DNA from: an uncultured bacterium
Lineage (GTDB): Bacteria; Bacteroidota; Rhodothermia; Rhodothermales; UBA10348
Assembly: GCA_938018055.1 (NCBI GenBank)
Contig: CALIKL010000005.1
Location: 1-37,433 of the forward strand
Length of the DNA stretch: 37,433 bases
Reading direction: 5' to 3'
The position numbers were made by a program, and so were the translations under genes. The stretch's first letter is position 1, and each line of letters opens with the position of its first letter. Positions 12,339-17,541 of this stretch are shown piece by piece. Below the pieces are notes generated by a model. That model had not been told where the DNA came from, did no database searches, and saw only the letters and a program-made list of their open reading frames with translations.

Positions 12339-13097
12339 TCAGCGATCAAGGCCGACTCTGAACGTCAGTATGGAGTAACTCTGGACGCGCTGACCGCCCT
12401 GAATGGCTGGTCTGAACGTATGACGCTGTGCCGCGCTCAGAACCGACTCTTCGATGCCATAACCGATGTGCTCGACGGCTTCTTTTTCTGTGCCGTCCTT
12501 GTTCAGCAGATAGCGCTCGACGACGCGTGTACCTGCCACACGTCCACGCACATCGACCAGGACTTCCACCACCACCTCGGCTCGCAGATTGCGCCGATCA
12601 GCTTCGCGCGGATACTCGGGTGTGGCAATGCGGACAGGAGAGGGGCTACGATCGGCCCGGGCTGCAACAGCCTGATTGCCAGTATCGGCCCCTTCGACAT
12701 TTTCCTCATCGGAACCGGCTTCGTTCATATCCAGGGCGACATCGGCGATTTCCAGTTCGATATCGTCGAGCACGACATCATCCGGCATGACCACGGGCGG
12801 CTGTGGAACGGGCGGCGGTGGTTTGCGCTTTTCCTGGGTCGTCTGTTGGATTTCCTCCACCTGTATCACCTCCTGGCCTCGGGTGTCGAATGTCGCACCG
12901 CTGAAGTCCACCGTCGGTGTCGGCCAGAAAAGGATACAAGCATTTACCACAAGCAGGCTCAGCGCGAGCGTGCCGAGAAAATGCAGGAGATAGCGCTCCC
13001 GACGGACGGTATTTTTCTGAAACTTGTTCAGTGCAGACCGGAGAATCGAATGGTGTCGAATGGACGGGGGCATTCTGAGCAATGCCTTACCAACCAT
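12339..13097 (-). CDS. TonB-family protein (energy transducer)
   Basis: A 252-residue protein with the TonB layout. There is a basic cytoplasmic N-terminus, one membrane anchor (about 40-60, LGTLALSLLVVNACILFW), a Pro-rich periplasmic spacer (KRKPPPPVPQPPVV, about 92-105), an acidic linker, and a C-terminal TonB domain (about 160-252: TPEYPREADRRNLRAEVVVE, later FRPAIQGGQRVQSYSILTFR). It would pass proton-motive energy from ExbB/ExbD to outer-membrane receptors; these partners are not in the window. The anchored segment lacks the SxxxH helix motif of E. coli TonB, as is common in Bacteroidota. It lies 45 bp upstream of the broken aminotransferase gene on the same strand. Alternative start at Met9. 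Confidence 0.85.
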   Translation of the reverse strand: MVGKALLRMPPSIRHHSILRSALNKFQKNTVRRERYLLHFLGTLALSLLVVNACILFWPTPTVDFSGATFDTRGQEVIQVEEIQQTTQEKRKPPPPVPQPPVVMPDDVVLDDIELEIADVALDMNEAGSDEENVEGADTGNQAVAARADRSPSPVRIATPEYPREADRRNLRAEVVVEVLVDVRGRVAGTRVVERYLLNKDGTEKEAVEHIGYGIEESVLSAAQRHTFRPAIQGGQRVQSYSILTFRVGLDR

Positions 13098-13293
13098 CCG
13101 GGGCCCCTGAAAGCCTGGCCAACATACGTCTCGGAGACTACCGAGGTCCGAGGCAGTTGCTGAATCGTACTGGCTCTACGGCAAGTGGTCATTGTGGATA
13201 ACTGATGGGTTCAGGGACGGGCGTATGCCCTGCTTTCATCGTAATTTATCGCAGACGCCGGGGTAGGTCCATGGCCTGTTGATACTGGCGCCG

Positions 13294-13301
13294 TATCTTT
13301 G
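13294..13301 (+). promoter_or_regulatory. Possible -7 promoter element of carAB
   Basis: TATCTTTG matches the Bacteroidota -7 consensus TAnnTTTG exactly. A TTG sits 15 bp upstream (13279), closer than the usual -33 spacing. Initiation near 13308 would give a leader of about 175 nt that includes the leader peptide and hairpin. From 13098 to 13293 nothing else was recognised. Confidence 0.35.
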
Positions 13302-13371
13302 ATGAAATGCTTAATCCCAAGACGACGAGACACGTGCTCTGCAAGCACCCCGACTCCGGCTTACGAACCGC

Positions 13372-13398
13372 ATGATGAACAGCCTTCCCAACAGGTAA
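13372..13398 (+). CDS. Possible 8-residue leader peptide of carAB
   Basis: ATG ATG AAC AGC CTT CCC AAC AGG TAA encodes MMNSLPNR. The coding stretch covers the whole 5' arm of the terminator hairpin, and its stop codon lies in the loop, so a translating ribosome would prevent hairpin formation. This is the geometry of pyrBI-type attenuation. Short ORFs are common by chance, so this depends on the hairpin context. Confidence 0.35.
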   Translation: MMNSLPNR

Positions 13399-13416
13399 TG
13401 GGGAGGCTTTTTTTTT
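13381..13416 (+). terminator. Intrinsic terminator / attenuator upstream of carA
   Basis: A 10-bp stem with one G-T pair (AGCCTTCCCA 13381-13390, TGGGGAGGCT 13399-13408) and an 8-nt loop, followed by nine T (13408-13416). It points toward carA and lies 65 bp before its ATG. No plus-strand gene is upstream that it could serve, since the TonB gene points away. It therefore most likely controls entry of polymerase into carAB, or ends a small leader RNA. Confidence 0.65.
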
Positions 13417-13481
13417 GACCTTTTTGGAAGGGTACCCCTCGACCAACCGCTGAAGAGCGGCAGACTTCGACCTTCAGAACC

Positions 13482-14657
13482 ATGATCAACCCACAGAACA
13501 ACGAACTCTTGCTGACACCGGCCCCGTGCAAAATGGCGCTGGCCGATGGAACAGTGGTGACGGGCAAAGCCGTCGGCTTCCGGGGCGAGACCGGGGGCGA
13601 GTTGTGTTTCAATACGTCCATGACGGGCTACCAGGAGATCTTTACCGATCCCAGCTATGTCGGCCAGATCATGATGATGACCTACCCGCACATCGGGAAT
13701 TACGGCACCATGGATATCGATATGGAGGCGCGCACCCCAATGGTATCGGGTGTGGTAGTCAGGGCCTTTTCTCCGCGCTACTCCAACATGCTTACGGATG
13801 AGTCGCTCGATGCCTTCATGAAAAAGCATCAGCTGGTGGGGATTTCAGAGATTGACACCCGAGCCCTGGTCCTGCATATCCGCTCCAAAGGAGTGATGAA
13901 CGCCGTCATATCTTCGCTTGACCTGGATGATGATTCGCTGATCGAGAAAGCCCGGAATTGGCCTTCCATGGAGGGACTGGAGCTTGCTTCACGCGTGACG
14001 ATCAACGAAGCCTACGACTTTTGCGAGGGCGCCGGCCCCAAAGTGGCCGTCTTCGATTTCGGAGTAAAGCAGAATATCCTGCGCTCATTCAAAGCGCGCG
14101 GATGCTCGGTCCGAGTGTTTCCCGCGGCAACCGAACTCAAGGACGTTTTGGCCTGGCAGCCGGATGGCATCTTCTTTTCGAATGGACCGGGCGATCCGCG
14201 CGCAATGCCCGATGCCATCGCCATGACGAAAGAGGCCATGCAGGCGAATATTCCGCTTTTTGGCATCTGTTTGGGTCATCAGCTCTTGTCCCTGGCGGCC
14301 GGTCTTGAGGTGTACAAGATGTATGTCGGTCACCGCGGCGCCAACCACCCGGTCCAGAATCTTCAGACGGGTAATGTGGAGGTATCCACCCAGAATCACG
14401 GTTTTGCGGTGGATCGGGAGTCGATCTCGGACGACATCGCCTCCATCACGCATGTTAACCTCAACGACCAGACGGTCGAGGGTGTGCGATTTGCCAAGTG
14501 CTCGGCTTTCTCCGTGCAGTACCACCCCGAGGCATCGCCCGGACCGCATGACAGCCAGTATCTCTTTGACGAGTTCATGGCCGATATCGAAAAACACAGT
14601 GGCGTCAAATCGACCCACGAGCCGACCCCTGAAATGGTGTATGCCGGCGGACGCTGA
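13482..14657 (+). CDS. carA: Carbamoyl-phosphate synthase, small (glutaminase) subunit
   Basis: A 391-residue protein that hydrolyses glutamine and channels ammonia to CarB for carbamoyl phosphate, the precursor of pyrimidines and arginine. The N-terminal CPSase_sm domain (about 10-150) contains FNTSMTGYQEIFTDPSYVGQ. The class I glutamine amidotransferase domain (about 190-375) has FSNGPGDPRAMP, the nucleophile Cys in LFGICLGHQLL, NHGFAV, and the catalytic His/Glu in VQYHPEASPGP. Full length for the family. carB follows after 55 bp in the same direction; both lie behind the attenuator-like hairpin. Confidence 0.98.
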   Translation: MINPQNNELLLTPAPCKMALADGTVVTGKAVGFRGETGGELCFNTSMTGYQEIFTDPSYVGQIMMMTYPHIGNYGTMDIDMEARTPMVSGVVVRAFSPRYSNMLTDESLDAFMKKHQLVGISEIDTRALVLHIRSKGVMNAVISSLDLDDDSLIEKARNWPSMEGLELASRVTINEAYDFCEGAGPKVAVFDFGVKQNILRSFKARGCSVRVFPAATELKDVLAWQPDGIFFSNGPGDPRAMPDAIAMTKEAMQANIPLFGICLGHQLLSLAAGLEVYKMYVGHRGANHPVQNLQTGNVEVSTQNHGFAVDRESISDDIASITHVNLNDQTVEGVRFAKCSAFSVQYHPEASPGPHDSQYLFDEFMADIEKHSGVKSTHEPTPEMVYAGGR

Positions 14658-14712: not shown

Positions 14713-17541
14713 ATGCCCAAGCGTACGGACATCAAGAAAATCCTTCTCATTGGTAGCGGCCCGATCATTATCGGTCAGGCCTGCGAATTCGACTATTCCG
14801 GAAGTCAGGCCTCCCGTTCCCTGCGGGCAGAAGGGTATGAGGTCGTCCTGGTAAACTCGAATCCGGCTACGATCATGACCGATCCGGTCACGGCCGACAA
14901 GATTTACCTTCGTCCCTTGACGCCAGAGTCCATCAAACAGATTGTGGAAGAGGAAAAGCCCGATGCGGTACTTCCCACAATGGGTGGGCAGACGGCCTTG
15001 AACCTGGCCAACAAACTGCACGAGCAGGGCTACTGGGAAAAAATGGGCGTGGATGTCATCGGGGTCGACATCGACGCGATCAACATTACCGAGGACCGTC
15101 AGCAATTCCGGGACCTGATGGAAAAAATCGGTATCGACCAGGCCCGCTCACGTGTGGCAAAAAGTCTTCTCGAAGCCAAGGAGATCACTCAGGAATTGGG
15201 TGGTCTTCCGGTGGTTATCCGCCCATCGTTCACGTTGGGAGGTAGCGGTGGCGGCATCGTCTGGACGCCGGAGGAATTCGACAAGAAGGTCATGCGTGGG
15301 CTCGAATTGTCGCCTGTTCACGAGGTCCTGATCGAAGAGTGCCTCTTTGGCTGGAAGGAGTTCGAGCTGGAGTTGCTGAGGGATGCAAATGACAACGTCA
15401 TCATCATTTGCACCATCGAAAACGTGGATCCCATGGGTGTCCACACGGGAGATTCCCTCACCGTGGCTCCCAGCCAGACTCTGACGGACAAGCAGTTCCA
15501 GCGAATGCGGGACGCGGCCATTCGCATGATGCGCTCCATCGGGACGTTTGCTGGCGGATGCAACGTGCAGTTTGCGCTCGAGCCCAAGACGGGCCGCATG
15601 ATTGCCATCGAAATCAATCCACGCGTATCCCGCTCCTCTGCGTTGGCGTCCAAGGCTACGGGATATCCTATCGCCAAGGTCGCTTCGAAATTGGCTATTG
15701 GATACACGCTGGACGAGTTGAAGAACGATGTCACCGGAACGACATCCGCGTGCTTCGAGCCGTCCATCGACTACGTTGTGACGAAGATTCCTCGTTTCAA
15801 CTTCGAGAAATTCGAAGGCGTGGACGAAGAACTGACCACGCAGATGAAGGCCGTCGGCGAAGTCATGGCCATCGGCCGCACGTTTGCCGAGAGCCTGCAG
15901 AAGGCTTGGCAGAGTCTGGAAAACGGATACCATGGCCTGGGCGCGGATCGTGATGAAACCGCGCGTTTCGAAATCCGGGATCGACTGAAGAAGTCGTATT
16001 GGGATCGCACGCTACAGGTGCGAAACGCCTTCAAGCTGGGTGCGTCGGTCGAGGAAATCGCGGACATCTCGAAAGTTGACCCCTGGTTCCTCTATCAAAT
16101 CCAGGACATTGTCACGTTGGAAGGCGAGATTCGGAAAAAGGCACTTTCCCAGATTGACGAGCCCTTCATGCGCGAGATCAAGCGCTACGGGTTTTCCGAT
16201 TATCAGATTGCCTATCTGGTGCAGGATGACGTGACCCAGGACGAAGTGCGTGCACGCAGGATATCCCTTGGGGTGAAGCCATCCTATCAGGTCGTGGATA
16301 CGTGCGCCGGCGAATTCCCCGCTCAAACGCCATACTTCTACTCCTCCTACGAATCCCACACGGAAAGCGAGGTCTCCGAGAAGGAGAAGATCATCATTCT
16401 GGGAAGTGGTCCGAACCGCATCGGGCAGGGCATCGAGTTCGACTATTCCTGCGTTCATGGGGTATTGGCCTCCAAGGAGATGGGCTATGAAGCCATCATG
16501 ATCAACTGCAACCCGGAGACGGTCTCGACGGACTTCGATGTGGCAGACAAGCTGTATTTCGAGCCGGTCTACCTCGAGCGTGTCCGCGACGTAATCGAAC
16601 ACGAAAAGCCGAAGGGCGTCATCGTTCAGTTGGGCGGACAGACTGCCCTGAAACTGTCTGGCGATTTTGAACGACTCGGTATCCCGATCATCGGGACGAC
16701 GTATGACAGCATGGATCTGGCCGAGGATCGTAGCCGTTTCTCGGGCATCCTGAAAGAGCTTGAGATTCCATTCCCGCCTTACGGAGCTGCGCGCACTGAG
16801 CGCGAAGCCGTTGAAGAGGCAGAAAAGATCGGCTATCCCCTGCTCGTGCGTCCGAGCTACGTACTGGGTGGTCAAGGCATGCGCATCGCCATCAATAAGG
16901 ACGAGGTCGAGGAATACACGCAACGCATCTGGAAACTGATGCCGGACAACGTGATCCTGCTGGATCTCTTCCTGGAAAATGGTATCGAGCTGGATGTGGA
17001 CGCCATTTGTGACGGCGAAGACGTCTGGGTCTGCGGCATCATGCAGCACATCGAGCCAGCCGGGGTCCACTCAGGTGATTCGACGGCCGTACTTCCTCCA
17101 TACTCCATGTCAGACGAAGTGCAGCAGACGGTTCGTCAGTACATCAAGGAGATTGCCCTGCGACTGGGTGTGATCGGCCTGATCAATGTTCAGATGGTAG
17201 TCAAGAATGACATTGTCTACGTGATCGAAGCCAACCCGCGGGCATCACGCACCGTGCCATTCGTAGCCAAGGCAACGGGTATTCCGATCTCGAACATTGC
17301 GACCAAGGTCATGCTGGGCGAGAAGCTAAAGACGTTCCGCGAGAGCGGACAGCTGGAATCAAAGCTGGAGGGATTCGCCGTCAAAGAGCCGGTCTTCTCG
17401 TGGGACAAATTCCCCGAGGTACCGAAAGAGCTCGGACCGGAGATGAAGTCTACAGGCGAAGCCATCGCATTCATCGAAGACTTCGACGACGAAGCATTCA
17501 GGAAGCCCTTTGAAATGAGAAATCTCTACCTGTCAAGGTAG
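14713..17541 (+). CDS. carB: Carbamoyl-phosphate synthase, large subunit, short form without the MGS domain
   Basis: A 942-residue synthetase subunit with two homologous ATP-grasp halves. The first starts [20 protein letters not shown], and the second starts [20 protein letters not shown] (about residue 560). ATP-grasp signatures are visible in both ([33 protein letters not shown]), as are metal-binding [12 protein letters not shown] and [14 protein letters not shown]. coli CarB has about 1070 residues, the last ~130 being the MGS-like allosteric domain for UMP, IMP and ornithine. Here the protein ends right after [17 protein letters not shown], so that domain is absent. A 10-bp hairpin (17521-17546) spans the stop codon but has no T-run. 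Confidence 0.97.

Follow-up and report, generated by a model that had tools for sequence, protein, structure and literature searches.

The window analyzed here, a stretch of 37,433 nucleotides from an uncultured bacterium of the order Rhodothermales, contains the carA and carB genes, whose product, carbamoyl phosphate, is the entry to both pyrimidine and arginine synthesis. carA, the gene under the control described below, was recognized from its translated open reading frame (ORF) and from relatives by tblastn; the divergent neighbor was taken from the ORF list. The genome assembly comprises 93 contigs totaling 2.42 Mb, and the named genomes closest to it are Rhodothermales MAGs. The features of the locus are as follows:

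12339 to 13097, opposite direction: TonB-like gene, divergent from carA
13294 to 13301, plus strand: Bacteroidota-type −7 promoter element TATCTTTG (TAnnTTTG), assigned to the carA leader transcript from sequence, relatives, and motif enrichment
13333 to 13350, plus strand: small hairpin CGTGC..GCAC over the GTG start, 5 pairs, −5.4 kcal/mol
13334 to 13375, plus strand: most likely leader ORF, conserved, with a GTG start (VLCKHPDSGLRTA, then stop), about 13 codons; its TGA (13373 to 13375) ends 5 nt 5′ of the terminator hairpin
13372 to 13398, plus strand: 8-codon ORF ATGATGAACAGCCTTCCCAACAGGTAA (MMNSLPNR, then stop), with its TAA in the hairpin loop
13381 to 13408, plus strand: attenuator hairpin AGCCTTCCC-loop-GGGGAGGCT, 10 pairs, −16.7 kcal/mol
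13408 to 13416, plus strand: T9 tract of the intrinsic terminator
13482 to 14657, plus strand: carA, carbamoyl-phosphate synthase small chain
14713 to 17541: carB, following carA

A perfect DnaA box (TTATCCACA, 13193 to 13201, minus strand) also lies between the TonB-like gene and the carA promoter; it is conserved in four close relatives (L002 to L005), and near variants (ATTGTGGAAAACTG) occur in genus g10.

The promoter element proposed by the original prediction is present at 13294 to 13301, and four close relatives from the same genus have TATCTTG, TATATTG, or TATATTA at the same aligned site, followed in most by GAAATG. Of 89 genomes, 40 carry TAnnTT[TG] in the interval 55 to 140 nt before the hairpin, compared with 11.8 in shuffles, and 2 carry it in the stretch from hairpin to carA, compared with 5.2; no such element is present in the window between 13417 and 13481. 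What this enrichment supports is the motif class, and the confinement of the motif to the upstream side argues both against an insulator role of the hairpin and against a transcription start after 13416.

The hairpin terminator with nine T residues, 65 nt from the carA start codon in the window, holds up as predicted and is conserved across the order. A single detector, applied within about 330 nt upstream of the gene, found a terminator at 89 of the order's 102 carA loci, all 89 with a T run of 5 to 9, and returned none on control loci from relatives before pyrE (0/22) or pyrG (0/30). The whole 2.4-Mb assembly has just four T9 sites; one of the others (L213, C40:127373-127381) lies in the sense direction about 110 nt upstream of dnaA. 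The strict pattern CCTTCCC-N3-9-GGGRRGG-T5 is matched in 42 of 100 genomes, nearly always at carA and usually nowhere else, with extra single matches on other contigs of G045, G034, G013, and G091; the two other stem-pattern matches in the window's own genome are both inside genes and have no T run. A generic terminator was rejected because carA is almost the only place where the stem pattern occurs and the pyrE and pyrG controls were negative. Judged by its conservation across the order, the hairpin terminator before carA is real, far beyond chance, and sequence comparison places it as an attenuator would be placed, between promoter and gene. The lack of such an attenuator before pyrE and pyrG means that no pyrimidine regulon can be seen. 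In family f14, all six genomes (G039, G049, G058, G064, G070, and G076) have carA and PyrR and no carA terminator; they may have lost this control of carA.

The stem also bears the covariation expected of a maintained hairpin. In 77 Rhodothermales hairpins the first pair beyond the core is G-C 43 times, A-T 22 times, and G-T 10 times, and core pairs 5 and 6 change from C-G to T-A in six hairpins each, so that compensatory exchanges are seen both at the outer pair and within the stem. The CCTT of the 5′ arm is invariant in all 77; its two T residues never vary, and their partners alternate between A and G. More broadly, the 5′ arm CCUUCC (in the window, for example, 13383 to 13389) is nearly invariant across many families, with a 3′ partner that drifts via G-U pairs. 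By these pair changes and the invariant T residues, the hairpin is maintained as such, with its 5′ arm conserved beyond that need; on this alignment evidence, the CCUUCC arm of Rhodothermales is under more constraint than terminator function requires.

As the leader peptide, the original prediction had chosen the 8-codon ORF with its stop in the hairpin loop. This ORF exists and does not pass the conservation check suggested with the original prediction: among close relatives it begins with ATG, ATG, GTG, TTG, TTG, and TTG; L003 and L006 are thrown out of frame by the deletion of 1 nt in the loop; and other genera lack the TAA there. It is thus not conserved as an ORF. The conserved frame is instead the one at 13334 to 13375, whose stop precedes the hairpin by 5 nt, and comparison with relatives makes GTG 13334 to TGA 13375 the most likely leader ORF. 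In family f1 (genera g1, g5, g6, and g10), the GTG, located 41 to 57 nt before the hairpin, is kept and followed by no stop before the hairpin foot in 17 of 17 genomes versus 11.8 from shuffles, an expected count that overstates significance, as genomes related within clades are not independent; the +1 and +2 frames are open in 13 and 12 of the 17, which is the chance level (11.1 and 11.4 expected). Most f1 leaders end 1 to 5 nt 5′ of the hairpin, others inside or past it, and a 12-nt insertion in the G025 leader preserves the frame. In most families the distance from leader stop to hairpin is 0 to 8 nt. The upstream ATG at 13307, at the transcription start, would lengthen the ORF; it was rejected as the leader start, being in frame only in G000 and G002 among g1 genomes and running to early stops in G004 and G005.

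Coding signals within the leaders are uneven. Counts of changes at the three codon positions are biased to the third in genus g22 (4/4/8, and 3/2/8 when only the first ten codons in four genomes are counted) and in g12 (7/8/12), are 6/0/6 in g6, and are flat in g1 (2/3/3); as the frames were anchored by eye after looking, these counts are supportive only. A blind test for synonymous changes was defeated by alignment gaps, with p=0.16 in g22a, and order-wide an ATG- or GTG-initiated ORF is present in 76 of 89 genomes against 67 expected, barely above chance. In the window's own genus, the leader variation in the alignment looks as much like that of an RNA loop as of codons. The small GUGC/GCAC hairpin over the f1 GTG, whose arms are invariant and whose loop varies in g1 and g10, is perhaps a pause hairpin. 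Genus g22 (G038, G048, G057, G086, G093, and G099) has proline-rich leader peptides of the form MxPDIPPEPxP..., and readthrough there might depend on EF-P.

The sister order Balneolales has a carA hairpin at the same place with a quite different sequence, ATCCGAC...GTCGGAT followed by T8, in 48 of 50 loci (the pattern was built from the first ones seen). The leader ATG clusters at −49 to −52, and the ORF remains open through the hairpin and T tract in 33 of 36 genomes versus 18.9 in shuffles; these genomes are related, and such counts against shuffles are not probabilities. The hairpin is read in three different frames in different clades. One of these frames would run into a loop TAG; this TAG is present in 0 of the 5 genomes that use the frame and in 13 of the 31 that use either of the others. 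The use of three frames indicates that position, not peptide sequence, matters: these sequences show that what Balneolales preserve is an open frame across the terminator, not the peptide. Across both orders, an early transcription stop before carA is, by the same comparisons, common to almost the whole bacterial class.

Taken together, we consider that, on balance, transcription through the carAB leader is attenuated by ribosome coupling as in pyrBI, with a short translated leader that probably lets ribosomes switch off the carA terminator. RNA polymerase would start near 13305, copy about 75 nt, and meet the intrinsic terminator at 13381 to 13416, and the leader ORF, most likely GTG 13334 to TGA 13375, would position a ribosome at the hairpin foot. 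A ribosome close behind the polymerase would sit on the TGA and cover the 5′ arm, no hairpin would form, and carAB would be transcribed; were the polymerase to run ahead of the ribosome, the hairpin would form and transcription would stop. The leader ORF crosses the terminator in 33 of 36 Balneolales genomes and reaches it in 17 of 17 f1 genomes, as in the pyrBI type, and the pattern is weaker order-wide. Occlusion of the hairpin by the ribosome is deduced from this geometry and from published tests of the same geometry in Escherichia coli, where termination fell from about 90% to less than 10% once the stop codon was placed 5 bp rather than 28 bp ahead of the terminator, an effect that uncoupling translation abolished (PMC4824070). 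A study of EF-P employs pyrL as a coupling-dependent terminator (PMC5021804). From gene function and analogy with pyrBI, we infer that the signal would be the speed of the polymerase at low UTP, perhaps CTP. The leaders are, however, only mildly pyrimidine-rich in base composition (0.574 versus 0.473 upstream). They contain no sign of a competing structure: pairing of the 5′ arm with the upstream leader was 0.267 compared with 0.296 in shuffles, and the leaders showed no excess of structure (mean z, 0.07), so that neither an antiterminator nor an aptamer was seen. An unpaired arm and unstructured leaders argue against a riboswitch, a PyrR-type antiterminator, and a trp-type attenuator.

The alternative that survives best, though we consider it unlikely, is control of the terminator by a trans-acting protein (PyrR, or a factor recognizing the conserved CCUUCC arm) or by a small-molecule riboswitch. 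The retention of the CCTT arm while its partner drifts through G-U would suit a recognition site, the small upstream hairpin of g1 and g10 is invariant except in its loop, and 94 of 100 genomes encode PyrR. A Rhodothermales genome usually has two PyrR-family proteins, one of full length and one matching about 165 positions. However, the attenuator is kept in genomes with no PyrR match (G036, 99% complete, and G047, 96%, in f11; G089, 92%, in f13), the six f14 genomes have PyrR and lack the attenuator, and in the genome's own pyrR-pyrB operon the promoter element lies directly before the ATG, with no leader. The original prediction had noted no PyrR-type binding loop, and our Rfam search agrees: neither the PyrR element (RF00515 type) nor any other Rfam family matched 13150 to 13520 at E values up to 10. 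With the binding loop absent and no co-occurrence of PyrR and attenuator, control by PyrR was rejected, and a riboswitch or antiterminator was rejected on the unstructured leaders, the 5′ arm unpaired upstream, and the lack of an Rfam family; the very different hairpin sequence of Balneolales also speaks against this alternative.

Attenuation of the trp or his kind, in which a ribosome stalled at arginine codons would select between terminator and antiterminator, is improbable. carAB supplies arginine synthesis too, and arginine codons do cluster near the leader end in g12 (QLHFRRFRGG, then stop), g21 (LRR[SF]R), and g32 (RPRRR, then stop), which is suggestive in families f3 and f12 only. No arginine theme appears in g6 (VLYSSSAFGKTNF, then stop), in g22 (MxPDIPPEP...), or in the Balneolales leaders, and reading frames differ among clades; neither the shared codon theme nor the alternative antiterminator of the trp/his type was found. 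Spacing points the same way: in most families 0 to 8 nt separate the leader stop from the hairpin, but in amino acid attenuators the terminator stays more than 20 bp away (PMC4824070). Equally improbable is an unregulated role, with the hairpin as a partial terminator of constitutive action or an insulator, blocking read-in or fixing the carAB level, for although an ORF near the hairpin is often expected by chance, the promoter motif lies upstream of the hairpin and not between it and carA, so that an insulator would block its own gene, the stem is conserved across the order, and leader ORFs are in excess in Balneolales and f1.

Transcription attenuation of carAB with pyrBI-like geometry, the core of the original prediction, is well supported by comparison, with a different leader peptide from the one chosen. 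A broader formulation is attractive, though we hold it only tentatively, at somewhat less than an even chance: a class-wide carAB attenuator, not represented in Rfam, that retains nothing but the placement of a leader ORF beside the terminator, while peptide, frame, and, between orders, hairpin sequence are exchanged. Coupling itself would then be the conserved sensor, and the constant CCUUCC arm of Rhodothermales may add a recognition layer. Attenuation of the pyrBI type, known chiefly in enterobacteria, depends on a ribosome tightly coupled to RNA polymerase. If the proposed mechanism is true, such coupling operates in a deep branch of Bacteroidota (Rhodothermales and Balneolales); about 140 natural variants, differing in whether the stop lies at the hairpin, inside it, or past it, would make the distance rule testable, and the control of a step shared by pyrimidine and arginine synthesis would be explained where the PyrR operon has no leader.

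Our literature search, of incomplete coverage, found no description of carA attenuation for Rhodothermales or other Bacteroidota; related arrangements are known elsewhere. The Polynucleobacter carA motif, a riboswitch candidate, directly precedes carA as a conserved RNA element (PMC8632094), but it forms an imperfect, extended hairpin at the ribosome-binding site and is proposed to act on translation, whereas the window has an intrinsic terminator. The PyrR attenuators of Bacillus likewise place a terminator in the leader of pyrimidine genes, and PyrR is present in most genomes here; unlike them, the leaders described here have no PyrR binding loop or antiterminator, and the attenuator persists without PyrR. 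The carA leaders of Pseudomonas also have a promoter, a short leader, and a terminator before carA, a likeness that does not imply homology. In Pseudomonas aeruginosa, carA attenuation with a leader peptide has been reported, and in Pseudomonas syringae the 3′ end of the leader transcript (P32) was mapped at the terminator and removal of the stem-loop raised expression (PMC4997734); the Pseudomonas carA promoters additionally have ArgR sites, and in P. syringae no leader ORF was found. The nearest mechanistic counterpart is E. coli pyrBI with its leader pyrL. Unlike that system, the genes controlled here are carAB, the phylum is another, and the ORF in the window has about 13 codons, starts with GTG, and ends 5 nt before the hairpin. 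As in pyrBI, an intrinsic terminator lies just before a pyrimidine gene, a short leader ORF reaches or crosses it, no antiterminator hairpin is present, and the peptide sequence is unimportant; in Balneolales the ORFs cross the U tract, just as pyrL does in E. coli.
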